From Pseudomonas sp. G.S.17 (GTDB lineage: Bacteria > Pseudomonadota > Gammaproteobacteria > Pseudomonadales > Pseudomonadaceae), in NCBI RefSeq assembly GCF_038096165.1, contig NZ_CP151076.1:5205501-5269500 (forward strand): a stretch of 64,000 bases of DNA, given 5' to 3'. Of this stretch, positions 15,937 to 30,872 are shown one piece after another; the stretch's first letter is position 1; every line of letters begins with the position of its first letter. The position numbers and the translations under genes are program-made. Below the pieces are notes generated by a model. That model did not search any database. It had not been told where the DNA came from and saw only the letters and a list, made by a program, of their open reading frames with translations.

Positions 15937-16785
15937 ATGCCGAATTTACAACTCGCCGCCCTGACCACCGAAATCGAGGCCAATGTGCGCCGGGCGCTGC
16001 TGGAAGACGTCGGCAGTGGCGACATCACCGCTCAGCTGATTCCGGCGGAGCGTCTGGCGAAGGCCACGGTGATCTCCCGGGATGCGGCGGTCATCGCCGG
16101 TACGGCGTGGGTCGATGCCGTGTTCCGCCAACTGGACCCGCGTGTTGCGGTGCATTGGCAGGTGGTCGACGGTGATCGGGTCAAACCGGACCAGGTACTG
16201 TTTCATCTGGAAGGTCCGGCGCGCTCATTGCTGACGGGCGAACGCAGCGCGCTGAACTTCCTGCAAATGCTGTCGGGCGTGGCCACCAAGGCGCAGCATT
16301 ACGCCGATATGGTCGCTGACACTCAAGTCCAGCTGCTGGATACCCGCAAAACGCTACCCGGCCTGCGCCTGGCGCAGAAGTACGCGGTTACGTGCGGCGG
16401 CTGTCATAACCATCGCATTGGTTTGTTCGATGCGTTCCTGATCAAGGAAAACCACATCGCCGCCAGCGGCGGTATTGCCGAGGCCATCAGCGCCGCGCAC
16501 AAGATTGCGCCCGGCAAGCCGGTGGAAATCGAAGTGGAAAGCCTCAGCGAATTGCGTCAGGCACTGGATGCCGGTGCGGACATTGTCATGCTCGATGAGT
16601 TGAGCCTGGACGATATGCGCGAAGCGGTGACGATCAATGCCGGTCGCGCCAAACTCGAAGCCAGCGGCGGTATCAACGACCAGACATTGCGGGTCATCGC
16701 CGAAACCGGTGTGGATTACATCTCCATCGGCGCCCTGACCAAGGATGTGAAGGCCGTGGATCTATCGATGCGGTTGAGTCTTTAA
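15937..16785 (+). CDS. nadC: carboxylating nicotinate-nucleotide diphosphorylase (quinolinate phosphoribosyltransferase)
   Basis: A 282-residue enzyme converting quinolinate and PRPP to nicotinate mononucleotide in de novo NAD synthesis. Visible signatures: [18 protein letters not shown] (N-terminal/barrel junction), [17 protein letters not shown] (PRPP and quinolinate binding), [20 protein letters not shown] and the C-terminal EASGGIN and [11 protein letters not shown]. Start ATG 15937 with GTGGAG upstream gives the usual family length; in-frame sequence upstream is not conserved-looking. In P. aeruginosa the next gene is pilA; here a 12-kb polysaccharide locus follows. Confidence 0.97.
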
Positions 16786-16789
16786 ATCC

Positions 16790-16876
16790 GTTGGAGCGTG
16801 GCTTGCCCGCGAATTCAGACATTGCGGTGGTTCAGTTCCACCGCGTTATCTTTCTTCGCGGCAAGCCACGCTCAAC
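16790..16876. repeat. REP pair with an internal hairpin (GTTGGAGCG type)
   Basis: Outer arms GTTGGAGCGTGGCTTGCCC and the inverted GGCAAGCCACGCTCAAC enclose a third hairpin, GCGGTGG-TTCAGTT-CCACCGC (16824-16844). The same architecture occurs at 59212-59289, where the internal stem has changed on both sides. It starts five bases after the nadC stop and may act at the transcript end. Confidence 0.85.
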
Positions 16877-17283
16877 GCATATTCCGGGTTACGAACAATT
16901 AACACTGTGAAATCTCTATATATAGAAATCGTCTACATCGCGGGAAAGAACCAAACAACTCATTAATTTTATTTATCCACACCTCACAAATTGATTCGCG
17001 GTTTCAATATTAAAACCCGCCCATACCGTTTGTCACTGCACGACTCTGAACGGTTGCGCTTGTCTTGCATTCCGAATATTTAATAAAAGCGAAGTTATTG
17101 TTATTGCCAAAAGTTTTAGGCCTTAGATCTATCCGGGCAAAGTAAAGCTCGTGCGGTAGCCTACCCGTTATTCGGCAACTCCAGACTCTCCCCCCAGACA
17201 AGCTCGTCGTGGTGAACACTGCCGCGCAACCGGCGATAGCCTTTGCGCAGGGCGTGCTCGTGCGGCGCAAACGGATCCTGCAA
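16877..17283. other. AT-rich leader region of the exopolysaccharide operon
   Basis: About 400 bp upstream of the first exopolysaccharide gene, clearly more A/T-rich than its surroundings. It contains the perfect 12-bp palindrome TCTATATATAGA (16915-16926), runs such as TTAATTTTATTTATCC, and an ops-like element at 17152-17162. No convincing gene is present. A promoter is expected upstream of the ops-like element, for instance TTGTTA (17098) with TTAGAT (17123), but the 19-bp spacing is poor and this is a guess. Confidence 0.5.
17152..17162 (+). promoter_or_regulatory. ops-like (RfaH recruitment) element in leader
   Basis: TGCGGTAGCCT matches the ops consensus GGCGGTAGNNT at all fixed positions except the first, and is embedded in the small palindrome GGTAGCCTACC. 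It lies 122 bp upstream of the first gene of a long polysaccharide operon, the place where ops/JUMPstart elements act on RfaH-controlled operons. Function inferred; no rfaH is in the window. Confidence 0.45.
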
Positions 17284-18438
17284 ATGAAAAGGCAAAACTG
17301 GCTGGCCCTGCTTGTCCTTTCGCCCTTTCCGATGTCGGCCATGGCCGGTAAACCCCAGAGCATTGAAGTTGGTGGTTTCGAGTTCACGCCGACGCTGAAG
17401 GTAGGTGAACGGTATGACGATAACTTTCGCACACTCCACAACGGCACCTTGTCATCGTGGATTACTTCACTGCGCCCCACTTTCCTGCTGGAAGCGCAAA
17501 CTCGCAAAAGTGCTTATCAACTTGAATACGCCGTGGACAGCGAGACCTTTCACGATCACACCGACGCCAACCATGTGGACCAGCAGGTGGCACTTAGAAG
17601 CGTGCTGGAGGTCGATTCGCGCAACCGGTTGAAATGGGAACTGGGTTATAAGCGCGCCGAGGAAACAGTCGATACCGCCGACCCGCTGGAAAACGATAAG
17701 TACACCCTGAAGAACGCGCTGCTCGGTTACAGCTTCGGCACACAAAGCGGCATGAACCAGATTGATGTTTCGGCCGAATATGAGGAATTGCGTTATCGCA
17801 ACAGCGGCAATCTCAACGAAGACGAAGAACACGACACCCGCGCGTATGTCGCCACCTGGTATCACCGGCTTGGTGGACGCACCCGAGGATTGTTCGAATT
17901 GCGCCGCAGTGACTACGACTACGTAATGCCGGGCAGCCCGCGCAACAGCACCGGCAGCGCGGCACTGATCGGCTTCACCCGGGATGTCACGGCCAAAACC
18001 AGTGGCAGCTTGCGCGTCGGCTATGAACGCAAGGATTTCGACAGTGGCGCGGTCAGCGACCGCAGCAGCCCGACCTGGGAAGTCGGCCTGGCCTGGAAGC
18101 CACGCACCTACTCCACCTTCGAGTTGAACATGCGCAAGGCCTTCGATGAAGGTGACGACGGCGCCAGCACGGTCCATACCACCAGCACCCGTTTGAGCTG
18201 GACCCACAAATGGTCGGGCTGGATTTCCTCGAAGCTCGACTACCGTCACGCCGAACGCGAATACCTGGGCCTGAGCCGCGACGACACGCTGGACGCCTAT
18301 GGCGCGTCGCTGATCTACGCCGTCAACCGCTGGGCCGAAGTCAGCCTCGGTTATCGGCGCTGGCATAACGACTCCAACGTCGTCGACGAGCGCTACACGC
18401 GCAATGTCTACCTGCTGAACTTCGATTTGAGCCTTTGA
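17284..18438 (+). CDS. outer-membrane beta-barrel protein of the exopolysaccharide locus
   Basis: A 384-residue secreted protein: signal peptide MKRQNWLALLVL...SAMA cleaved near residue 20, then alternating amphipathic strands rich in Tyr, Arg and Asp and a terminal strand ending in Leu (YLLNFDLSL), typical of an outer-membrane barrel. It resembles the putative beta-barrel porin 2 (BBP2) family found in polysaccharide loci. The ATG at 17284 is preferred because the signal peptide begins there; the upstream GTG at 17209 is in frame but gives a non-secretory N-terminus. First gene of the locus, 42 bp before the short export protein. Probably the channel or adaptor for polymer exit. Confidence 0.8.
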   Translation: MKRQNWLALLVLSPFPMSAMAGKPQSIEVGGFEFTPTLKVGERYDDNFRTLHNGTLSSWITSLRPTFLLEAQTRKSAYQLEYAVDSETFHDHTDANHVDQQVALRSVLEVDSRNRLKWELGYKRAEETVDTADPLENDKYTLKNALLGYSFGTQSGMNQIDVSAEYEELRYRNSGNLNEDEEHDTRAYVATWYHRLGGRTRGLFELRRSDYDYVMPGSPRNSTGSAALIGFTRDVTAKTSGSLRVGYERKDFDSGAVSDRSSPTWEVGLAWKPRTYSTFELNMRKAFDEGDDGASTVHTTSTRLSWTHKWSGWISSKLDYRHAEREYLGLSRDDTLDAYGASLIYAVNRWAEVSLGYRRWHNDSNVVDERYTRNVYLLNFDLSL

Positions 18439-18480
18439 GCACCGATGTGCCTGGAGGGAAAGGGTCTGGAGGGGAATACC

Positions 18481-19008
18481 ATGTCTTTAGGTCAGTTCTG
18501 CCGCATTGCGCTTTTGCTCATCGTCAGCGGCCCGGTATTCGCCGCGCCGCAGTACAAACTCAACTCAGGCGACATTCTGCGCATCAATGTGTTTGGTGAA
18601 ACGGACCTCAGCTTCGCGGAAATGCGGCTTAACGATGCGGGCACCTTTTCCTACCCCTTCATCGGCGAGGTCAACGCCAAAGGCAAGACGCCGGCCGAAG
18701 TCGAGGCCCTGCTCACGAACAAACTCCAGGACGGCTATCTGGTCGCGCCCCGCGTCTCGGTCAGCGTGCTGGCTTATCGACCGTTCTACATCAGCGGCGA
18801 GGTGAAGTTGCCCGGCGGCTACCCATTCGAACCGGGCCTGACGCTGGATCGGGCGATTGCCCTGGCTGGCGGCCTGACCGAGCGCGCTTCGGACCGGCGT
18901 ATCTACATCGTGCGCGGTGCCGATACGCGGCGCAGCAGCCAGAAGGCGAGCCTGAACACGCTGGTCGAACCCGGCGACACCATCACCATCGAACAGGGGT
19001 TTTTCTGA
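18481..19008 (+). CDS. short polysaccharide export (OPX, Wza/GumB-like) protein
   Basis: A 175-residue exported protein: signal peptide with cleavage near VFA-APQ (about residue 21), a polysaccharide export domain (YKLNSGDILRINVFGETDL, about 25-105) and one SLBB-like segment (FYISGEVKLPGGYPF, about 112-160). It stops there and lacks the second SLBB domain and the C-terminal amphipathic helix that forms the outer-membrane pore of E. coli Wza (~380 residues). No lipobox Cys was seen at the signal end. Start ATG 18481 follows GGAGGGG. The next gene starts one base after the stop. It likely forms a periplasmic ring needing another outer-membrane component. Confidence 0.9.
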   Translation: MSLGQFCRIALLLIVSGPVFAAPQYKLNSGDILRINVFGETDLSFAEMRLNDAGTFSYPFIGEVNAKGKTPAEVEALLTNKLQDGYLVAPRVSVSVLAYRPFYISGEVKLPGGYPFEPGLTLDRAIALAGGLTERASDRRIYIVRGADTRRSSQKASLNTLVEPGDTITIEQGFF

Positions 19009-19009
19009 C

Positions 19010-21253
19010 ATGGACGAGGTGACTTCAAGCCGCCACGTGAGCAGCCCTGTAAGCAACTTCGGGCTGCCGCAGCGCTACGCCCCCATCGCCGACGACCGCG
19101 ACTTCATCGACTCGCGCAAGCTCGGCCTGATCCTCTGGACTCACAAATGGCGCATCGCCGCACTGGCGGCAGCCGCGACCCTGGCCGTCATGCTGATTCT
19201 GCACAACATCACGCCGGTCTATCGCGCCACGGCATCGCTGGTCATCGAGCCCAAGGGCGTAACGCTGATCACATTCCAGCAGCCAACTTACGATTCGCCA
19301 AACGCCGCCGTCGACTACCTGCAAACCCAGATCACGCTGATCCAGAGTCGCGCAGTGGCCGAGCGCGTGGTCCGCCAGTTGAACCTGACCGAACACCCCG
19401 AGTTCGATCCGCGCCAGCGCCTGCATCTGCTCCGGGAAGCGCGCGGGGAAATTGCCAGGCTTTATCCGGGCGCGTTTCCCGCCAGCTGGCTTGCCAGTCA
19501 CAGCATGACCCCGACCGAAGTGTTCGACGCCACAGTCCGGGAATTGATGGAACGCACCAGCGTCGGCGCCCAGGGCAAGAGTCAGCTGGTCAATATCAGC
19601 GTGAGCCTGGCCGACCGGGAAACCGCCGCGCTGGCGGCCAACGCGCTGGCCCACGGCTATCTCGACAGCCGGCTCGATGCGCAAATGAACGAGTCATTGA
19701 ACGCATCGAAATGGATGAACAGCCGGATGATCGAGTTGCGTACGCAACTGCAGGAGTCGGAAAACAAACTGCAACGCTATCGCGATGCCGAAGGCCTGGT
19801 GGACGTGGACGGCGTGGTCACCCTCAGCGCCAACGAGCTGTCGAAAACCAGTGACCGCATGATCGATGCGCGCCGCCAACGTGCCGAAGCGCAAAGCCAG
19901 TACGCGCAGGTGAAGGCGATGCTCGGCTCGAAAAGCCTGGCCAACCTGTCCAGCGTGCCAGCGGTGATCGGCAATCCGGTGATCCAGCAATTCCAGGCCA
20001 ACGAGGCGCAGGCCAGGGCCAAGGTCGACGAACTGTCGCGCCGCTACGGGGATCGCCATCCGAAAATGATCGCCGCGCGCTCGGACCTCGCGGCCGCTCA
20101 GGCGAGTCTGCGCGGTCAGGTCGATCAGGTCGTGGCGGGCCTTGAGCGCAATTACCAGCTGGCCCGCGCCAATGAAGAATCCTTGCGCTCATCGGTGGAT
20201 ACCAGCCGGGCGCAGATTCAGGACATTTCCCGCAAGGAATTCAAACTGCGCGAGCTGCAACGGGACGTGGACAGCAATCGCACCTTGTACGAAACCTTCG
20301 TGACGCGTCTGCGCGAGACCACGGCGACCGCTGATATCGGCGTCAGCAATGCGCGCATCGTCGACCCCGCGATTGTGCCCAGCGAACCCAGCGCGCCGAA
20401 GAAATCCCTGATCGCGTCAATAACTGCGCTGCTGGCGCTGGTGCTCGGCTGCGTGTTTTTCCTGCTGCGCGACACGCTGCACAATGGCTTCAAATCCGGC
20501 GACGACATCGCCAGGAAACTCAACCTGCCAGTACTTGGCCTGGTGCCACTGCTGCAGAAGAAAAGTCGCAGCAGTATTTCCCGGCAGTTCGAACGCAACG
20601 ACGACGCAGGCTTTACCGAAGCCATTCGCACCTTGCGCACCGCGATCATGCTCGGCGATACCCACAAACGCCGCGGCCTGTTGGTCATCACTTCGACGCT
20701 GCCCGGCGAAGGCAAGAGCGCCATTGCGGTCAATCTGGCGTTTGCGTTGGGCCAACTGGAACGGGTGCTGTTGATCGAGGCCGACCTGCGCCGCCCCAAT
20801 CTGGCGCGCAGTCTTGGCATGAACGCCGCGCAACCCGGCCTCGCTAGCCTGATTACCGGCCAGGCGAAAATAGACGCGTGCATCCACCGCGTCGGCCAGG
20901 TGGACATTCTCACTGCGGGCGAGGTGCCGCCCAACCCGCTGGAACTGCTGGCCTCAGCGAACTTCGGACGCTTCATCGAGTGGGCTCGGCAGCATTACGA
21001 CCGGATCATCCTCGACTCGCCGGCCAGTGATGCGGTCAGCGATGCAGCGGTGCTGTGTGCCATGGCCGACGCGGCGATCTACGTGATCAAGTCCGACAGC
21101 ACACCCGCGCCGCTGGTTCATCAGTGCATCGACCAACTTCTGCAAAACGGCGCTCCGCTGACCAGCGTGGTGCTCAATCAAATTACCCCGTTGAAAGGAC
21201 GCCAGGGATACAGCCAGCACTACCGTTATCTGCCTCGTGAAACTACCCAGTAA
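19010..21253 (+). CDS. polysaccharide co-polymerase with C-terminal BY-kinase (Wzc/GumC-like)
   Basis: A 747-residue inner-membrane chain-length regulator and tyrosine autokinase. Order: a short N-terminal cytoplasmic part, first membrane span (about 50-70, WRIAALAAAATLAVML), a Wzz-like periplasmic domain with coiled coil (about 80-460), second span (about 465-485), then a kinase with Walker A TLPGEGKSAI (about 563-572), Walker A' LLIEADLRRP (about 588) and Walker B ILDSPASD (about 667). The C-terminal tail has a small tyrosine cluster (YSQHYRYLP), the expected autophosphorylation sites. It controls polymer length with the polymerase and export protein. No matching phosphatase (Wzb) gene is in the locus. 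Confidence 0.94.
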   Translation: MDEVTSSRHVSSPVSNFGLPQRYAPIADDRDFIDSRKLGLILWTHKWRIAALAAAATLAVMLILHNITPVYRATASLVIEPKGVTLITFQQPTYDSPNAAVDYLQTQITLIQSRAVAERVVRQLNLTEHPEFDPRQRLHLLREARGEIARLYPGAFPASWLASHSMTPTEVFDATVRELMERTSVGAQGKSQLVNISVSLADRETAALAANALAHGYLDSRLDAQMNESLNASKWMNSRMIELRTQLQESENKLQRYRDAEGLVDVDGVVTLSANELSKTSDRMIDARRQRAEAQSQYAQVKAMLGSKSLANLSSVPAVIGNPVIQQFQANEAQARAKVDELSRRYGDRHPKMIAARSDLAAAQASLRGQVDQVVAGLERNYQLARANEESLRSSVDTSRAQIQDISRKEFKLRELQRDVDSNRTLYETFVTRLRETTATADIGVSNARIVDPAIVPSEPSAPKKSLIASITALLALVLGCVFFLLRDTLHNGFKSGDDIARKLNLPVLGLVPLLQKKSRSSISRQFERNDDAGFTEAIRTLRTAIMLGDTHKRRGLLVITSTLPGEGKSAIAVNLAFALGQLERVLLIEADLRRPNLARSLGMNAAQPGLASLITGQAKIDACIHRVGQVDILTAGEVPPNPLELLASANFGRFIEWARQHYDRIILDSPASDAVSDAAVLCAMADAAIYVIKSDSTPAPLVHQCIDQLLQNGAPLTSVVLNQITPLKGRQGYSQHYRYLPRETTQ

Positions 21254-21401
21254 GGCGTAATCGCGCGTCATGGGCCGCTGTCGTCTCGACGCGGCTGCGC
21301 ACGTTATCGCCTGCACATTCTGGCCGCTGCATGCGTTGTTTGACTCGCCGATGCCGAGGGCGAGCGACTGCGCGATGCCACCCATCGGGGAGATATCCAC
21401 C

Positions 21402-22787
21402 ATGCTTGCTCAACGCCTACATCCGTCGGTCAATCGACGCGGCCTGACTTTCTGGGTGCAATGGGTCTGCGCCATGGGCCTGACCGCGCTCGTGACCTGC
21501 GCGATCATATATCAGGACATCGGCGCGATTCCCTACGCCTATCGGGTGCTGATGATCGTCGGCGTGCTCGGTTCGGTGCCGATCTATAGCGCGCTGCATG
21601 TCTATCACAAGCGCTTCGGCTACCTGACGGGTTTGCTGCGTGTGCTCGGCGGCTGGCTGCTGCTGGTTACCGCGCTGTCAGTGCTGTCGCGGGTTTGCCT
21701 CGACGCTGGCGATCTGGATAACGGCTTGCTGTTCGAGGCCGCAATGGCGGGTTATCTGGCGCAATGCGCGACATACCTGCCCTTGCGGTATCTGGTCAGC
21801 CTGCACTCGCGCTGGCTGCGCAAGGAGCGAGTCTCGGTAATCATCGGCACATGCCCCATGGCCTACACCCTGGCGGCACAGCTGCGACAGCGGGTTCCGG
21901 TGCTCGGCCTGGTGGCGACCGAACCCGGCGTTTCCTCGATAAGCGGCCAGCCTCCGGTTCTCTGCGAACTGGCGCAGCTGCGCGATCTGGTTATCGGCGA
22001 TCACGTGCGGCGGGTGTATATCGCCCTGGCACTGAACATGATCACGCAGATTGAAACCATCTACCTGAGCCTGCTGGACCTCAATGTGGATGTGGTCTGG
22101 GTGCCGGATTTCGGCAGCATGCTGCTGCTCAATCAATCGGTTTCCCAGATCGAGCAGTTCCCGGCGATTTACCTCAACGAAACCCCGCGCAGCTCCCATC
22201 CCGCCGCCACCCTGGGCAAGGAAATGTTCGACCGCAGCCTGGCGCTGCTCGCCTTGCTGGTGCTGCTGCCGGTGATGTCGGCCATTGCCCTGGCGGTGAA
22301 GCTCTCGTCACGCGGCCCGGTGTTTTTCCGCCAGCCCCGGCATGGCTGCAACGGCGAAGTCATCCAGGTGTGGAAATTTCGCTCGATGCATGTGCATGAG
22401 GACAGCCACGTGCAACAGGCAACCCGCGACGATCCACGGATCACGCCGGTCGGCGCCTTCCTGCGCCGCACCTCGCTGGACGAACTGCCCCAGTTGATCA
22501 ATGTGCTGCGGGGCGAAATGGCCCTGGTCGGCCCGCGCCCCCACGCGATTGCTCATAACCAGTATTACGGCGCGCGAATCCTCGCTTACACCGCACGCCA
22601 CCGCATCAAGCCGGGTATCACCGGCCTGGCGCAGGTCAGCGGCTTTCGCGGCGAAACCGAAACCCTGGAAAAGATGCAAGAGCGTCTGGAAAAGGACCTG
22701 GACTACATCAATCACTGGTCGCTTTGGCTGGATATCAAAATCCTGCTCAAGACGCCGTTCACGCTGTTCTCGCGCAATATCTATTGA
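21402..22787 (+). CDS. undecaprenyl-phosphate sugar phosphotransferase (WcaJ-like, initiating enzyme)
   Basis: A 461-residue polyprenyl glycosylphosphotransferase that starts each repeat unit by moving sugar-1-phosphate (glucose in the WcaJ class) onto undecaprenyl phosphate. The N-terminal part has several membrane spans (about 15-110) and a nucleotide-binding-like domain (about 140-260); the catalytic C-terminus has FDRSLALLALLVLLPVM, KFRSMHV, RRTSLDELPQLINVLRGEM, GPRPH and KPGITGLAQVSG. ATG 21402 after GGGGAGA is chosen over in-frame starts from 21270, which give a poorer N-terminus. About 150 bp separate it from the kinase gene. Glucose specificity is inferred from the class. Confidence 0.92.
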   Translation: MLAQRLHPSVNRRGLTFWVQWVCAMGLTALVTCAIIYQDIGAIPYAYRVLMIVGVLGSVPIYSALHVYHKRFGYLTGLLRVLGGWLLLVTALSVLSRVCLDAGDLDNGLLFEAAMAGYLAQCATYLPLRYLVSLHSRWLRKERVSVIIGTCPMAYTLAAQLRQRVPVLGLVATEPGVSSISGQPPVLCELAQLRDLVIGDHVRRVYIALALNMITQIETIYLSLLDLNVDVVWVPDFGSMLLLNQSVSQIEQFPAIYLNETPRSSHPAATLGKEMFDRSLALLALLVLLPVMSAIALAVKLSSRGPVFFRQPRHGCNGEVIQVWKFRSMHVHEDSHVQQATRDDPRITPVGAFLRRTSLDELPQLINVLRGEMALVGPRPHAIAHNQYYGARILAYTARHRIKPGITGLAQVSGFRGETETLEKMQERLEKDLDYINHWSLWLDIKILLKTPFTLFSRNIY

Positions 22788-22800
22788 GATGGAGACGGAC

Positions 22801-24204
22801 ATGGCTGATCAGGAATCAGGCGGTGCCGTGTTGCCAGGCCGAGGCAGCGGCTGGCGCGGGCGATGGCAGCAGGCGGCCCGCGCGCGCCTGTTGCGCAACA
22901 TCGCTACGGCGGTGTCCGGCAGTGCCGGGGCGCAGGCGATCAACCTGGCGCTGATTCCCGTCATCATGCGCATCTACGGGCCGGAAGCGTTCGGCGTGGT
23001 CGGCACGTTCCAGAGCCTGACCATTATCCTGATTCCGGCGTGTGCGCTGACCTGGCCCATGGCGATTGTCCTGCCCAAAAGCGACGCCGACGCCCGAGGC
23101 CTGATCATACTTTCGCTGTGGGTGGCGCTGAGCATCGCGAGCGTGTCCGCACTGCTCCTGTATTTCCAGGGGCCAGCGATGGCCAGCGCGTTGGGCATCG
23201 ACATGCTGACGCCTTACCTGATGCTGCTGCCCATCGTGATGTTCAGCGCCGCCGTGCTGGAAATCACCCAGCAATGGTTATACCGAACTCAACGCTTCAG
23301 CCTTACCGCGCGCGGCGCAACCTTGCATGCGCTGGTCTATAACGCGACGCGCAGCCTCGCCGGACTCGTACAGGCCTCGGCCCCGGTATTGGTGGTGACC
23401 AGTGCGCTGTATTACGTGATCCACAGCGCATTGCTGTTGCTGGGCATGACCTTCAAGCCCACCGCAAACAACCTCGCCCCGACCAACCCGCCAACCTCCG
23501 TCAGCCTGACGAAACTGGCTGCGCAATATCGGGATTTCCCGCTATTTCGCGCGCCGCAGGTGCTGATCAATGCCCTTTCCGTGCACATGCCGACGCTGGT
23601 TCTGGCGGCGTCCTTCGGTGCCGTCTCGGCGGGATTTTTCGCCCTGTGCCTGCAAGTGCTGAGTATGCCAAGCAACTTTATCGGCAAGGCAGTCGGCAGC
23701 GTTTATTACCCACGAATCACCCAGGCGATTCACACCGATGAACCGGTTACCAGGCTGTTGGTGCGCGGCGTGGCCGGCATGGCGCTGGTGGGAATCGTGC
23801 CGTTCGCCACACTGGCGCTGGCCGGACCCTGGCTGTTCGGGCTGGTGTTCGGCGCGCAGTGGGCGGCCGCTGGCGAATATGCCCGCTGGCTGGCCCTGGC
23901 GGAGTTCGCCGGTTTCATCGCGGGCCCCTGCGCTGTGGCGATTCCGGCGCTGGCCCTGCAAAAACGCTTTCTGTTCTTCGAGATTGTCAGCACCACATTG
24001 CGGGTCGTGGCGGTCTTCGCTGGGGCACTGCTGTTCAAGAACGCCCTGGCGGTGGTGATGGCCTTCGCGGCGGCCAACACCGCAATCAACCTGAGCCTGA
24101 TCGTCGTCGTTCTGTTTGAGGCCCGGCGCTGGCATCAACGCCAGAACCGCCCGGCTCGCGATCTCTCGTCTGCGCAGGAGTCATCCGAACATGGCCATGG
24201 CTAA
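22801..24204 (+). CDS. polysaccharide flippase (Wzx-like, MATE/MVF fold)
   Basis: A 467-residue integral membrane protein with 12 or more hydrophobic segments and the N-terminal polysaccharide-biosynthesis/flippase pattern (SGSAGAQAINLALIPVIMRIYGP). It should translocate the lipid-linked repeat unit across the inner membrane. ATG 22801 has GGAGACGG upstream; an ATG four codons earlier (22789) is possible. The 3' end overlaps the glycosyltransferase start by 14 bp, showing tight coupling. Confidence 0.9.
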   Translation: MADQESGGAVLPGRGSGWRGRWQQAARARLLRNIATAVSGSAGAQAINLALIPVIMRIYGPEAFGVVGTFQSLTIILIPACALTWPMAIVLPKSDADARGLIILSLWVALSIASVSALLLYFQGPAMASALGIDMLTPYLMLLPIVMFSAAVLEITQQWLYRTQRFSLTARGATLHALVYNATRSLAGLVQASAPVLVVTSALYYVIHSALLLLGMTFKPTANNLAPTNPPTSVSLTKLAAQYRDFPLFRAPQVLINALSVHMPTLVLAASFGAVSAGFFALCLQVLSMPSNFIGKAVGSVYYPRITQAIHTDEPVTRLLVRGVAGMALVGIVPFATLALAGPWLFGLVFGAQWAAAGEYARWLALAEFAGFIAGPCAVAIPALALQKRFLFFEIVSTTLRVVAVFAGALLFKNALAVVMAFAAANTAINLSLIVVVLFEARRWHQRQNRPARDLSSAQESSEHGHG

Positions 24205-25138
24205 CGTATGCGCGCTGATCCTCAACTGGAACGGCGCTGAACAGACCATCAAATGCGTGAGATCGGTGGACGCTTACTGCGCGATTCCTCTCGTGGTGGT
24301 CGACAACCATTCCGAAGCACCGGATTACCAGCGCCTGACCGACTACTTCAGCACGCGAACCGATGGCGATACCTGGACCGGCACAGAAGAGCAGATCCGC
24401 GAGTACCCACACAAACACCGCACCTGCCTGATCAGGAATGCGGGCAACTACGGCTATGCCGGCGGCAACAACGTAGGCATCGATTACTTGTACCGCGCCG
24501 GCTACGACTATATCTGGCTGCTGAATAACGACATCACCGTTGAAGCAGACTCATTGCAAGCGCTGCTGTCGACCCTGGGCAGCGACGCCAATTGCGGGTT
24601 TTGCGCGTCGATTCTGGTCTATGCCGATCATCCGGAAATCGTCCAGTGTGTCGGCGGCGGGCAGCTTTATCCGTGGCTGGGCAAGGCCCGGTTGGTCGGC
24701 AAAAACCTTGGCCGCGACAAGCTGGGCCATCACCTTGGCAAACTGCCGAAACCTGATTACCTGATGGGCGCCTCGCTGCTGATCAAGCGCGAAGTCATCC
24801 AGCGCGTCGGCCTGATGGATGAACGCTATTTCATGTACTCCGAAGAAGTGGACTGGCAACGCCGCGCCGCCAGCCTGGGTTTTACCTGTCAGGTGGCGAC
24901 AGGCAGCTTCGCCCGCCACGGCGACAGCGCCAGCACCCAGAACCGCAGCCACATGTTTCATTACTATCGAAACCGCGCGGCCATCATGTACAACAAAAAA
25001 TTCCACTCAATGCCCTGCTACCTGTTTTCGGCGCTGGCTCTGACGGCCATCACGGCACTGCAAAACCGCCACAACCTGAAAAACATTCGGTATGGGATCA
25101 AGGGCATCGGCGAAGGTTTGGCGTTTTCGTGGCGTTGA
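24191..25138 (+). CDS. family 2 glycosyltransferase
   Basis: A 315-residue GT-A-fold transferase of the rhamnosyltransferase-like GT2 group (COG1216 type). Signatures: ALILNWNGAEQT at the N-terminus, VVDNHSE, RNAGNYGYAGGNN, WLLNNDITV (metal/nucleotide-sugar site) and MGASLLIKREV...GLMDERYFMYSEEVDW. A hydrophobic stretch near 285 may anchor it to the membrane. Start ATG 24191 has AGGAG upstream and lies inside the flippase 3' end. It should add one sugar to the lipid-linked intermediate; the donor cannot be told from sequence. Confidence 0.92.
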   Translation: MAMANVCALILNWNGAEQTIKCVRSVDAYCAIPLVVVDNHSEAPDYQRLTDYFSTRTDGDTWTGTEEQIREYPHKHRTCLIRNAGNYGYAGGNNVGIDYLYRAGYDYIWLLNNDITVEADSLQALLSTLGSDANCGFCASILVYADHPEIVQCVGGGQLYPWLGKARLVGKNLGRDKLGHHLGKLPKPDYLMGASLLIKREVIQRVGLMDERYFMYSEEVDWQRRAASLGFTCQVATGSFARHGDSASTQNRSHMFHYYRNRAAIMYNKKFHSMPCYLFSALALTAITALQNRHNLKNIRYGIKGIGEGLAFSWR

Positions 25139-26117: not shown

Positions 26118-27404
26118 ATGATTCGCAAACTCTTTGCCTATCGCGCCTTGCTGTTCTTGCTGTTGTTGATGAACTCGGCGTGTCTGTTCCTGACTGACGA
26201 TAAAAAAGCCGGCATCCCGTATCTGCGGGAATTGTTTATCGTCGCCATCGTGCTCGGCGCTCTGGTTTTATTGCTGACCTGGAGCCGCGCCCAGCAGTCG
26301 CGCGCAGGCTTGTGGATTGTGATTTTCGGCCTGGTCCTGCCGCTGCTGTCGGCGCTGCTGGCGGCGCTGAACTTCGGCCAGCCTTTTGACTTTGGCTTGC
26401 TGGAAGAGCGCCGCAGCTTTCTTTATCTGCTGTTCTTCCCGATGCTGTTTTTGCTGATAAAAGCGCATCCCACCCAGGAGCAAATGGAGAAGTTCATGCT
26501 CTGCTGCGCCGTGGCCTGCGTGGTGGTGGGCTATCTGTATTACTGGGGCGTGTTGCTGGAAAACAACGACGTCAGTTTTACCGTTGATGAAAAGGATTAC
26601 GGGATCAACCCGTTGCGGCCCAATCGCCTCAGCATTGGCGCACCTTATGTCAGCGCCTGCGCCTTCATGCTGATGTATCGCCTGCAACGGTCCATGTCCT
26701 GGCTCGCTGTTGCACTACTGCTGCTGTTCGCCTCGTATCTCTGGCTGGTGATTCAGACGCGCAACATCATGCTGATCTGGGCGCTGGCGGGGATCTGGAT
26801 CTTTCGCAGCCGGGTCGGTTTGCTGGTCAAGCTCGGCATCCTGGCGAGCGCGGTGCTGCTGGCGGCTTTTTCCCTGGCACCGGATTTTTTCGCCGCGCAA
26901 CTGGGCAGGTTCGACGCGCTGTTGTTCGAGGCGCGAGAACCGGGCGTGCGCAATATCACGACGCAGATTGTGGTCGAGGAACTGGCGCGCAACGGCCTGA
27001 TCGGCATGGGCGCGCTGTCCCTGCAATGGCAAGGCGGTTTCTCGCGGCTGTACAACGGCTACTTCTATCTGTCGGATGTGGGCCTGCTCGGGGTCTATTA
27101 CCGGTTTGGTTTCCTGACTCCGGCTATCGCGCTGATTTACTACCTGGGCTTCTTTCGTTTCATGTCCTATTGCCGGAAAAAAGGCGATCTGCTCAATGCC
27201 TTGCAGCTGACATTCTGGTTCAACGGGATCAATTTTTTCTTCTCCAACACCATCATGTACGGCGGGGAAATCACCGGGCTGTCCATCGCCGCGTTCGTTT
27301 ATTACGCCCGGACGCAAGACTCGCCGGCAACGGCAACACCGAGGAACAACTGGCTGCCTGAAGATGCCCTGCGAACCCGGACCGTTGCGCGGGCAAAAAC
27401 CTAA
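26118..27404 (+). CDS. probable exopolysaccharide polymerase (Wzy-like, O-antigen ligase family fold)
   Basis: A 428-residue polytopic protein with about 11 hydrophobic segments and a large extracytoplasmic loop around 250-330, the layout of Wzy polymerases and O-antigen ligase-family proteins. It has no catalytic motif that can be recognised by eye, which is usual for Wzy. The context (flippase, co-polymerase, export protein) supports polymerase over ligase. Its stop overlaps the stop region of the convergent GH5 gene by three bases. It is separated from the upstream half of the locus by the tandem duplication, so it may have its own promoter. Confidence 0.8.
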   Translation: MIRKLFAYRALLFLLLLMNSACLFLTDDKKAGIPYLRELFIVAIVLGALVLLLTWSRAQQSRAGLWIVIFGLVLPLLSALLAALNFGQPFDFGLLEERRSFLYLLFFPMLFLLIKAHPTQEQMEKFMLCCAVACVVVGYLYYWGVLLENNDVSFTVDEKDYGINPLRPNRLSIGAPYVSACAFMLMYRLQRSMSWLAVALLLLFASYLWLVIQTRNIMLIWALAGIWIFRSRVGLLVKLGILASAVLLAAFSLAPDFFAAQLGRFDALLFEAREPGVRNITTQIVVEELARNGLIGMGALSLQWQGGFSRLYNGYFYLSDVGLLGVYYRFGFLTPAIALIYYLGFFRFMSYCRKKGDLLNALQLTFWFNGINFFFSNTIMYGGEITGLSIAAFVYYARTQDSPATATPRNNWLPEDALRTRTVARAKT

Positions 27405-28504
27405 CCCCGGGTCATCGTGCAGTGCGGCGCCACCAGATACTTCGCCAGCACTGGCCATTGCGGACGATCACGGCCGTTTACCGGTTCAATGGACAGCGCG
27501 TAATCGCCCCACGCCGAACCGGCCGACCAATACGCCAGCGGCACGCATTTTTCTTGCAGATAGGCCAGCAAACGATCCATGGCCTGCCCCCAGCGCGGGT
27601 CGTCCGCCGGGAACCCGGCTTCACCGATCTGGCCACGCTTGCCGTTTTTCTCCAGCCATTCGACAAACGGCCGGACGCGCTTCACGGCAATGTCCGGATC
27701 GAAGCGCTGCCCGAGGACTTTCTGATAGCGCCCGCTGGCGTCTTCATCGAAATACAGATGGGCGGAATAAATCAGATTGTTGGACGGGTCTTGCAGGTCC
27801 AGTAACGCATCGTTGTGATGCGGCCAGCGTGTCGCACTGGACCAGGAGCGCCCTTCGATAATGATCGGGCGGTGCCAGTCATTGGCGCGTATGGCGAAAA
27901 TCCCCGCCTGTGCCGCCTTGGGCCAATACTGGTCGGCCTCGTCATGGGGTTCGTTCATGATGTCGTAGGCGTACAGCGCCCGAAAATCCCGCCAGCGCAT
28001 CGACACCCGGTGCAACAGATCCCGATAAGCCTTGATCGGCACGTGCTTGCTGCCCAGCACTTCATTTTCATAACGCCCGAAGTTATGCACATCAAGCGTG
28101 ACCTTGATCCCGCGCCGCTCGGCCTGGATCAGCATTTTGTCGATCAGCGACGCATAGGTTTCATCCAGCTCGCCCCCCAGCTTGAGCTGCAAACGCTCCC
28201 AGCGCATGGGGAAGCGAATCGCGCGGATGCCTCTGGCCTGCCATTTATCGAAGTAATTCTCGTCCGGAAAAAAATAGTGCGTGCCGTTTTCTCCCGGCCA
28301 GACGCCCTCGGAAAACTCCGCACCCGAGACGTTGATCAAGACCATCGGCGCTTGCCTGGCGGTTTTTTGCGCATTGGCCCCGAAAGACAGCACCAGCAGC
28401 ACGACGACGAGCAGCAATTTGCCCGTCCAGTCGATGCCGCCGGGCGTTGTCATCGATGGCTTTTCAAGCGCCGCCACCACGGCTGAGTCCAGTGAATCGA
28501 GCAT
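27401..28504 (-). CDS. glycoside hydrolase family 5 (cellulase-like) in the exopolysaccharide locus
   Basis: A 367-residue exported GH5 (beta/alpha)8 glycosidase. An N-terminal hydrophobic segment at about 26-42 (LLLVVVLLVLSF) ending at ANAQ looks like a signal peptide or anchor with a long cytoplasmic lead; an alternative start at the internal ATG (MTTPGG) would give a standard signal peptide. The catalytic acid/base Glu is in AYDIMNEPHDE and the nucleophile Glu in GQIGEAGFP; VTLDVHNFGRY and YSAHLYFD are further GH5 blocks. It probably trims or cuts the polymer made by this locus. It runs antisense to the neighbours, tail-to-tail with wzy and divergent from the GT26 gene; AAGGGGG precedes ATG 28504. 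Confidence 0.9.
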   Translation of the reverse strand: MLDSLDSAVVAALEKPSMTTPGGIDWTGKLLLVVVLLVLSFGANAQKTARQAPMVLINVSGAEFSEGVWPGENGTHYFFPDENYFDKWQARGIRAIRFPMRWERLQLKLGGELDETYASLIDKMLIQAERRGIKVTLDVHNFGRYENEVLGSKHVPIKAYRDLLHRVSMRWRDFRALYAYDIMNEPHDEADQYWPKAAQAGIFAIRANDWHRPIIIEGRSWSSATRWPHHNDALLDLQDPSNNLIYSAHLYFDEDASGRYQKVLGQRFDPDIAVKRVRPFVEWLEKNGKRGQIGEAGFPADDPRWGQAMDRLLAYLQEKCVPLAYWSAGSAWGDYALSIEPVNGRDRPQWPVLAKYLVAPHCTMTRG

Positions 28505-28606: not shown

Positions 28607-29374
28607 ATGAAAGTATTCGGCATCGAGTTCTATCATCGCCAGCGAAAGGATCTCGTCCGCGAACTGACCGTGCTCAGCAGCAGGTCGTTTCGCTACGTCG
28701 TGACGCCAAACGTCGACCACGTGGTGATGCTGGAACACGACAAGGATTTGCGCAGGGCCTACAGCTACGCTGCGTATCGGCTATGCGACAGCCGCGTGCT
28801 TTTCCCGCTGTTGAATCGGCTGCACGCCGACATCGCTGAGGCGATTCCCGGCAGCACGCTGACTCGGGACATGATCCAGATTGCACAGGAGCGTGGCTGG
28901 ACAGTGACGGTCATCGGCTGTGAACAGGAAGTCATTGCCACGTTGCAGCAGATGAATCCCTCGATCACCTTCCGCCACTACAACCCGCCGATGGGCTTCA
29001 TCGACGATGCCCGGGAAATCCAGCGCGCCGTTGATTTCATCAATCAACATCCGGCGCGGATGGTGGTGTTTTCAGTGGGCTCGCCGCGCCAGGAAATACT
29101 CGCGATGCGTGTGCTCCAAGGTCGCGGGGCTGTAGGGATTGGCCTGTGCGTCGGCGCGTCACTGCTGTTTCTCTCAGGAAAAGTCAGGCGAGCACCGGAA
29201 TGGATGCAACGCCTGTCACTTGAATGGCTGCATCGTTTCATTCATGAGCCACGGCGGCTGGGCAAGCGTTACGTCAGGGATGCCTACCGGATCGTTCCCG
29301 TCATCATCAAAGAGATCAGGAGCGACACAGAGAAACCTTCGAATTCAGACAACGACCCGCGAGGCCTGTCGTAG
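28607..29374 (+). CDS. WecG/TagA/CpsF-family glycosyltransferase (GT26)
   Basis: A 255-residue cytoplasmic GT26 enzyme. Signatures: RYVVTPNVDHVVML with the conserved Asn-x-Asp, LTRDMI, VTVIGCEQEV, and the family GSPRQEI motif with GVGASLLFLSGKVRRAPEWM-type block near 185-205. GT26 enzymes add a sugar (often ManNAcA, ManNAc or GlcA) to a lipid-linked sugar. Start ATG 28607 follows GAGGAG. It is the last gene of the locus and divergent from the GH5 gene, with a 102-bp gap for both promoters. Confidence 0.93.
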   Translation: MKVFGIEFYHRQRKDLVRELTVLSSRSFRYVVTPNVDHVVMLEHDKDLRRAYSYAAYRLCDSRVLFPLLNRLHADIAEAIPGSTLTRDMIQIAQERGWTVTVIGCEQEVIATLQQMNPSITFRHYNPPMGFIDDAREIQRAVDFINQHPARMVVFSVGSPRQEILAMRVLQGRGAVGIGLCVGASLLFLSGKVRRAPEWMQRLSLEWLHRFIHEPRRLGKRYVRDAYRIVPVIIKEIRSDTEKPSNSDNDPRGLS

Positions 29375-30331: not shown

Positions 30332-30408
30332 TGGTGCCGAAAACAGGAATCGAACCTGCGACCTTCGCGTTACGAGTGCGCTGCTCTACCGGGCTGAGCT
30401 ATTTCGGC
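30332..30408 (-). tRNA. tRNA-Thr (CGT anticodon)
   Basis: 77 nt including an encoded CCA. Minus-strand sequence begins GCCGAAATAGCTCAG, pairing GCCGAAA with TTTCGGC; the anticodon loop CTCGTAA gives CGT (Thr, codon ACG); the T arm contains GGTTCGATTCC. It sits 56 bp downstream of pilA on the same strand, the same neighbour as in P. aeruginosa, where accessory pilin genes are often inserted between the two; none are here. Confidence 0.95.
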
Positions 30409-30464
30409 TTCAGAGGGGTAAAGCTAGCATCGCTGTTCATCAGGTCAACGAACAGTCCTCACCA

Positions 30465-30872
30465 TTACTTACAGGAAGCAGGCATCCAGTTTGCTGGTGT
30501 GCCGACGCATGTCCAAGAGGCAATAGCGTTGGCGTTGGTTGCCGCTACTGTCGGAGTCAACGTAACCTTTACCGCTGCGGCGTTGATAGTGCCGTCTACT
30601 ACGATTGCACCGGTTGCTGCATCCACTGCAAGTGTTGTCGCATAGGTTGTCGGTACAAAATCAGTACCACAAGCAGCAAGGCCGGTGAAACCGTTGGTAG
30701 ACACAGCCTCAGTTACGCAAGTGCGCGCACCGCTCGCAGCAAGGATCAGCTCTGACGCTTTAGCGCGAGCGGTGTAGTCCTGATAAGCGGGCAACGCAAT
30801 CGCTGCCAAAATCCCGATAATCGCAATCACGATCATCAGTTCGATAAGGGTAAAGCCTTTTTGTGCCTTCAT
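30465..30872 (-). CDS. pilA: type IV major pilin
   Basis: A 135-residue type IVa pilin. A short leader MKAQKG is cleaved by PilD before Phe ([19 protein letters not shown]), with the conserved Glu5 of the mature protein; a hydrophobic helix follows, then a globular domain with a C-terminal disulfide loop between the Cys of SWTCVGT and the Cys of PASCK at the end. A further Cys pair (ARTCVTE, LAACGTD) may form a second disulfide. It ends in Lys, not Ser. It is divergent from pilBCD, with a sigma-54-type promoter upstream. Compared with ~150 residues in relatives it is slightly short but complete. Confidence 0.97.

Follow-up and report, generated by a model that had tools for sequence, protein, structure and literature searches.

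The barrel and export protein pair

Within a 64,000-nucleotide stretch of Pseudomonas sp. G.S.17 (contig NZ_CP151076.1, positions 5,205,501 to 5,269,500; hereafter the window), two adjacent genes encode a predicted outer-membrane beta-barrel and a short outer-membrane polysaccharide export (OPX) protein, followed directly by the gene for a polysaccharide co-polymerase (PCP) with a bacterial tyrosine kinase (BY-kinase) domain. OPX and beta-barrel very probably form a composite exit for the polymer of a Wzx/Wzy-type polysaccharide pathway, based on the strict adjacency of the two genes, their domains, the predicted 18-strand fold of the barrel, an OPX model that lacks a membrane helix, and pair-bearing species whose genomes gave no second OPX match.

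The barrel open reading frame (ORF; ATG at 17284, stop at 18436–18438, 384 amino acids) is matched over residues 23–379 by PF10082 (BBP2_2, putative beta-barrel porin 2; E = 3.1e-34). The OPX ORF follows after a gap of 42 nt, with GGAGGGG ahead of its ATG at 18481 and a stop at 19006–19008, and the kinase ATG at 19010 lies 1 nt beyond that stop. The SLBB domain of the OPX extends over residues 102–146 or 102–169, depending on which of two Pfam SLBB models is used, and the Pfam search of this protein returned no domain beyond PF02563 and the single SLBB. The signal peptides of both proteins were judged by reading the sequence, without a prediction program. The signal-peptide-like start of the OPX has no cysteine at the cut, and a lipobox pattern occurred in one of 124 OPX relatives (L102), in that case due to an overextended start; because it has no lipobox, the protein would lack a lipid tether to the outer membrane. 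The initial annotation, made from the sequence, had set the interval exactly (17284..19008) and described a 175-residue export protein with a signal peptide and a polysaccharide export domain, directly preceded by a signal-peptide-bearing BBP2-like barrel and placed just ahead of a BY-kinase, all of which agrees with the ORFs, the Pfam matches and, for the signal peptides, the reading of the sequence. The segment it called SLBB-like is a true SLBB match above the Pfam cut-off, and Pfam likewise finds no second SLBB domain.

The solved chain nearest to the OPX by sequence is 9n9a, and a PDB sequence search with the barrel returned nothing at E up to 1. A scan of positions 16700–19100 found no promoter for the barrel gene, with one promoter-like site on the minus strand (0.9 expected) and five terminator-like sites (3.1 expected), one of which (16823–16845, plus strand) follows nadC.

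Distribution amongst the Pseudomonadaceae

In a sample of 298 Pseudomonas genomes, the barrel was matched in 44. The OPX query had some match in 253 genomes and a close match (E below 1e-50) in 44, identical to the 44 with the barrel, and no genome in the sample carried the barrel without a close OPX. The two genes were adjacent on one strand in 44/44, the outcome of a search across the genus that the initial annotation had proposed. A scan of named genomes, from which 80 of 109 confirmed loci were kept (Pseudomonas, Stutzerimonas, Halopseudomonas, Denitrificimonas, Serpens, and one unplaced Pseudomonadaceae bin), gave the same order, with a co-oriented OPX gene behind the barrel gene in 80/80; the 44-genome and 80-locus sets overlap and their counts are not independent.

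Gene content in the 44 genomes was counted in fetched stretches of 13.5–20 kb. A kinase match follows the pair in 43 (missing in G182) and a transferase match is present in 43 (missing in G023), with all four genes in 42/44, while the other sugar genes of the window are all matched in seven, the source genome included. The barrel, OPX, kinase, and transferase are thus near-constant and the other sugar genes vary. In G182 (L063), the barrel and OPX are present with no kinase gene between the OPX and the transferase. As nadC adjoins the pair in only two of the 44 genomes (the source genome and G022), the polymer locus seems to have relocated.

Predicted structures

The model of the barrel (predicted template modelling score, pTM, 0.81) shows 18 strands, each at least 13 residues long, and is AlgE-like in VIA-align; against a viral fold library, its matches were mostly porins and other barrels. 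The fold and the signal peptide together point to a probable outer-membrane location. The barrel and OPX were also modelled together as a 1:1 read-through fusion with an alignment of 96 rows, 33 of them paired (the chain from the window and 32 in-frame fused loci). The last element of the OPX in this model is a strand (OPX residues 167–172), with neither a C-terminal helix nor any part that crosses the membrane. The two traits of class 1 OPX proteins (Wza), a second SLBB domain and a membrane-spanning C-terminal helix, are therefore both lacking, by Pfam and by the fusion model. The initial annotation had held that the Wza-type helix was absent and that a pore-forming helix would count against its reading; the terminal strand agrees with the former.

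A second OPX in the source genome

There are two PF02563 matches in the source genome, the second located at G000:C1 ~2.143 Mb, 3 Mb from the pair. This second OPX is lipoprotein-like with two SLBB domains and resembles Wza. Its own polymer locus (L004 9446–18965) holds a transferase, several glycosyltransferases, a PslG-like glycosidase, and an RfaH-like gene, all named by eye apart from the OPX. Another PF02563 match is present in 35 of the 43 other pair-bearing genomes, and no second match at E up to 0.001 was found in the remaining eight (G001, G023, G120, G147, G164, G166, G229, and G266), several of which are drafts, with completeness of 99–100. Because these eight species have no second match, export through a Wza in trans is unlikely in them, as judged from gene content. 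A full-length Wza co-occurring with the locus had been named in the initial annotation as evidence against a two-part exit; the objection is not borne out, as the Wza-like OPX does exist but in a separate locus of the source genome, and 8/43 relatives gave no second PF02563 match.

The surrounding polysaccharide locus

The gene content around the pair is of the Wzx/Wzy type, with a kinase, transferase, flippase, glycosyltransferase, and WecG-type gene (Table 1). The kinase is matched by TIGR01005 (E = 3.6e-92) yet falls under the cut-off of that model, and has hydrophobic segments at residues 49–67 and 467–485 by hydropathy, with ~399 residues between them. The transferase start was placed from a relative; the ORF opens at 21270 and the TIGR03023 score was computed from 21372. 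The probable Wzy had no Pfam or NCBIfam match. The glycoside hydrolase family 5 (GH5) enzyme may trim the polymer; its gene was matched in 9/44 related loci. The locus is flanked by nadC (15937–16785) on one side and a tRNA-Thr gene on the other, beyond which lie pilA-like and pilB-like genes named by eye (the flanks as observed span 15937–16785 to 30332–30872).

Table 1. Features of the pair and the adjoining polysaccharide genes in the window
Feature	Position	Strand	Evidence and remarks
Outer-membrane beta-barrel (BBP2_2, VpsM/EpsL/Wzp-like), 384 aa	17284..18438	+	PF10082; likely signal peptide, residues 1-21
Short OPX protein (class 3, D1D2), 175 aa	18481..19008	+	PF02563 and SLBB; residues 1-21 probably a type I signal peptide, without lipobox
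Poly_export (D1) of the OPX, residues 22-96	18544..18768	+	PF02563, E 2.6e-22
Single SLBB (D2) of the OPX, residues 102-169	18784..18987	+	PF10531/PF22461, SLBB E 2.8e-13
Invariant Gly-Phe-Phe at the OPX C-terminus	18997..19005	+	77-row alignment; 124/124 OPX (two locus sets that overlap)
PCP with BY-kinase domain (Wzc-like), 747 aa	19010..21253	+	TIGR01007, 127.7 against cut-off 108.05 bits
Initiating undecaprenyl-phosphate sugar transferase (WcaJ-like)	21402..22787	+	TIGR03023, 410.9 against cut-off 410.75 bits
Wzx-like flippase	22801..24204, start approximate	+	PF13440
Glycosyltransferase family 2 (GT2)	24197..25138	+	PF00535
Probable Wzy polymerase	26118..27404	+	Many hydrophobic segments; role from context
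GH5 (cellulase-family) glycosidase	27401..28501	-, antisense to locus	PF00150, E 1.6e-36
WecG/TagA/CpsF-type glycosyltransferase	28607..29374	+	PF03808, E 1.9e-37

OPX proteins across the Pseudomonadota and their C-terminal ending

Searching 150 Pseudomonadota genomes gave a PF02563 match in at least 129, and the best 80 listed places outside the genus, from 70 genomes, were compared. By length these comprise 46 short OPX proteins, seven of 183–187 residues with other tails, and 27 longer; from domain start to end, 44 of the short proteins have 151–173 residues and two have 225–228. A same-strand PF10082 gene occurs within 4 kb of 20/46 short and 0/34 other OPX genes (Fisher p = 2e-6), and for 13 of the short ones it lies immediately upstream, no more than 1 kb away. 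The split mirrors section 11 of PMC9601211.

The last residue is aromatic in 44/46 short OPX proteins compared with 9/34 of the others. A Phe-Phe or Phe-Trp end is found in 13/13 short OPX proteins with the barrel directly upstream and 4/33 of the other short ones; by identity clusters in this first sample, the counts are 5/5 and 0/5 (50%), 6/6 and 1/15 (60%), and 10/10 and 4/19 (70%). The pattern was first seen after the fact in the 46 short proteins and was then tried on genomes outside that sample, where it held in 20/23 OPX proteins behind a barrel and 1/24 short controls. The fresh barrel set comprised 28 of 29 loci (L312, seen before, was excluded), with the OPX following the barrel on its strand as read from strand and position; four had no OPX match and one had no stop in reach, leaving 23 counted with three exceptions. 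As controls served the 30 PF02563 loci that scored highest beyond the first sample; 24 of these are short, and none has PF10082 within 1 kb upstream, as read by eye. Five of the 24 end in a non-aromatic residue, which weakens the wider aromatic-end rule. Short OPX proteins without PF10082 upstream (L318–L347, L209–L288) mostly end in Trp-Phe, Leu-Phe, Arg-Phe, or the like.

It is possible, if rather doubtful, that the OPX docks by its C-terminus, with the Phe-Phe or Phe-Trp just past the last SLBB strand plugging into its cognate barrel at the periplasmic rim. Such a docking tip would lie on the side of an OPX ring that faces the outer membrane, in place of the helices of Wza, and would account for the way in which an OPX ring lacking a membrane anchor locates its barrel. 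OPX proteins with the barrel directly upstream and those without it also belong to different subfamilies, and several of the latter have a PF10082 match downstream instead; the ending is therefore not kept as a functional finding and may be a family mark as opposed to a docking device. No published account of the motif was found in literature searched by motif terms at the level of titles and abstracts, and in the main texts of PMC9601211 and PMC9603273 the word 'aromatic' is absent and 'phenylalanine' appears once, as a cross-linker.

Relation to known export systems

This kind of barrel/OPX exit was described in 2022 (PMC9601211, PMC9603273). The initial annotation correctly cited Myxococcus as the precedent for a short OPX with a barrel and underrated how far the arrangement extends, as it had already been reported as widespread: section 11 of PMC9601211 counts 1,230 short OPX proteins, 453 of which lack a C-terminal helix and are coupled to a barrel, and barrel-coupled short OPX proteins occur in 10 phyla. 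In Myxococcus xanthus, EpsY/EpsX (WzaX/WzpX), WzaS/WzpS (ExoA/ExoB), and WzaB/WzpB likewise combine a short D1D2 OPX lacking an outer-membrane helix with an 18-strand barrel (PMC9601211, PMC9603273), have a PCP partner and a Wzx/Wzy pathway in common with the Pseudomonas pair, and, for EpsX, have AlgE as the closest structural relative. The myxobacterial OPX proteins are, all but one, predicted lipoproteins (section 8 of PMC9601211), whereas the Pseudomonas OPX bears a likely type I signal and lacks a lipid anchor. Vibrio cholerae VpsN/VpsM is a named short OPX/barrel couple in PMC9601211, a likeness that rests on the JGI names of two relatives, VpsN (P0133) and VpsM (P0070).

The EpsE/EpsF/EpsG/EpsL set (XrtB/PEP-CTERM type) is similar in that the OPX resembles EpsE (TIGR03028; 96.2 against 262.65 bits), the kinase EpsF and EpsG, and the barrel EpsL (TIGR03014; 29.1 against 275 bits), all below the curated NCBIfam cut-offs, but differs in that PCP and kinase are fused in the Pseudomonas locus. 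The EpsL gene presumably comes after those for PCP and kinase in that set. Escherichia coli Wza, a class 1 OPX, has Poly_export and SLBB domains and a similar pathway in common with the pair, but spans the outer membrane with its own C-terminal helices, of which the Pseudomonas OPX has none. PelB/PelC of Pseudomonas likewise join a barrel with a ring in the periplasm, but belong to a synthase-dependent pathway that is not known to include an OPX domain; the PelBC entry 9h80 ranked 42nd among the matches listed. Literature searched by title and abstract start, a scope outside which the supplementary tables of the 2022 papers lie, held no description of the Pseudomonas pair. It is a well-conserved further example of an exit known since 2022, not a new system.

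Proposed route and alternatives

In the proposed pathway, the WcaJ-like transferase would start the sugar chain, Wzx would flip it, Wzy would polymerise it, and the BY-kinase PCP would control its length. The polymer would then traverse a ring formed by the short OPX in the periplasm, with D1 facing the PCP and D2 the outer membrane, and leave via the 18-strand barrel, which would replace the C-terminal helix barrel of Wza. Several observations weigh against this reading. Foldseek's own ranking sets two other barrel entries ahead of AlgE, and OccK/OprD porins nearly equal the AlgE score in VIA-align. The fusion has a pTM of 0.62 (mean predicted local distance difference test score 85, each domain well folded) against 0.81 for the barrel alone and is therefore read as giving no confident 1:1 placement. 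Across the 55 named loci (of 80) where each of the four genes had a match, barrel and OPX distances have a partial r of 0.20 beyond kinase and transferase (0/2000 permutations as high), below the 0.48 between OPX and kinase, and the barrel correlates with the kinase at 0.51 and the transferase at 0.44; these correlations represent shared inheritance, with little specific to barrel–OPX contact. WzpB–WzaB are likewise reported in PMC9603273 as lacking evolutionary coupling. One of the 44 barrels (G235, Pseudomonas sp. LS-2) is split over two frames; the split is near the 3' end of the gene (L059, L108) and is either a sequencing error or real. In the wider sample, 26/46 short OPX genes have no PF10082 gene within 4 kb, so that other partners or distant genes must act there, and the PF10082 family is no general partner of short OPX proteins. 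As the fusion model is unconfident and the coupling weak, we infer docking of the OPX under the barrel by analogy with EpsX/EpsY.

Four models of how OPX and barrel meet are set out in PMC9603273, the last of which is a shuttle, another mechanism for the same two parts, in which the OPX binds polymer while at the PCP and delivers it to the barrel with no docked ring. The missing lipid tether, the missing confident pose, and OPX distances that track the kinase more than the barrel all fit this variant, but M. xanthus EpsX and EpsY are mutually stabilising and interact in pulldowns (PMC9601211) and the OPX C-terminus is invariant, leaving it an unlikely account. That the barrel has another surface task, in polymer binding like Wzi or as a nutrient porin, with the polymer leaving elsewhere, is improbable given that the barrel never occurs without this OPX in the 298 genomes, that the OPX model has no membrane-crossing part, and that eight genomes have no other OPX that could be found. 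Exit in trans through the Wza-like OPX would draw on a protein present in the source genome, and at least one other PF02563 match is held by most pair-bearing relatives; its place within its own polymer locus and the eight relatives without a second match make this highly improbable. The missing second SLBB domain and C-terminal helix would also fit a decayed, truncated Wza, a reading with next to no probability and rejected here, as the short form and C-terminus are kept in 124 relatives with the last three residues invariant. The composite exit, the two-part structure put forward in the initial annotation, is supported by adjacency in all 44 genomes, with no pore-forming helix in the OPX model and the Wza-like OPX confined to a distant locus.

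Significance for the Pseudomonadaceae

An exit of this kind is carried by 44/298 Pseudomonas genomes. What sets this OPX/barrel family of the Pseudomonadaceae apart is an OPX that has no lipid anchor, a set of four genes that is nearly constant, and the invariant tip. How a polymer crosses when its OPX cannot span the outer membrane was answered in outline in 2022, with four models on offer for the way in which OPX and barrel meet (PMC9603273). For testing these the family is a compact set, with adjacency in every locus examined, an OPX lacking a lipid anchor, several species in which no other OPX turned up, and an invariant tip amenable to truncation.
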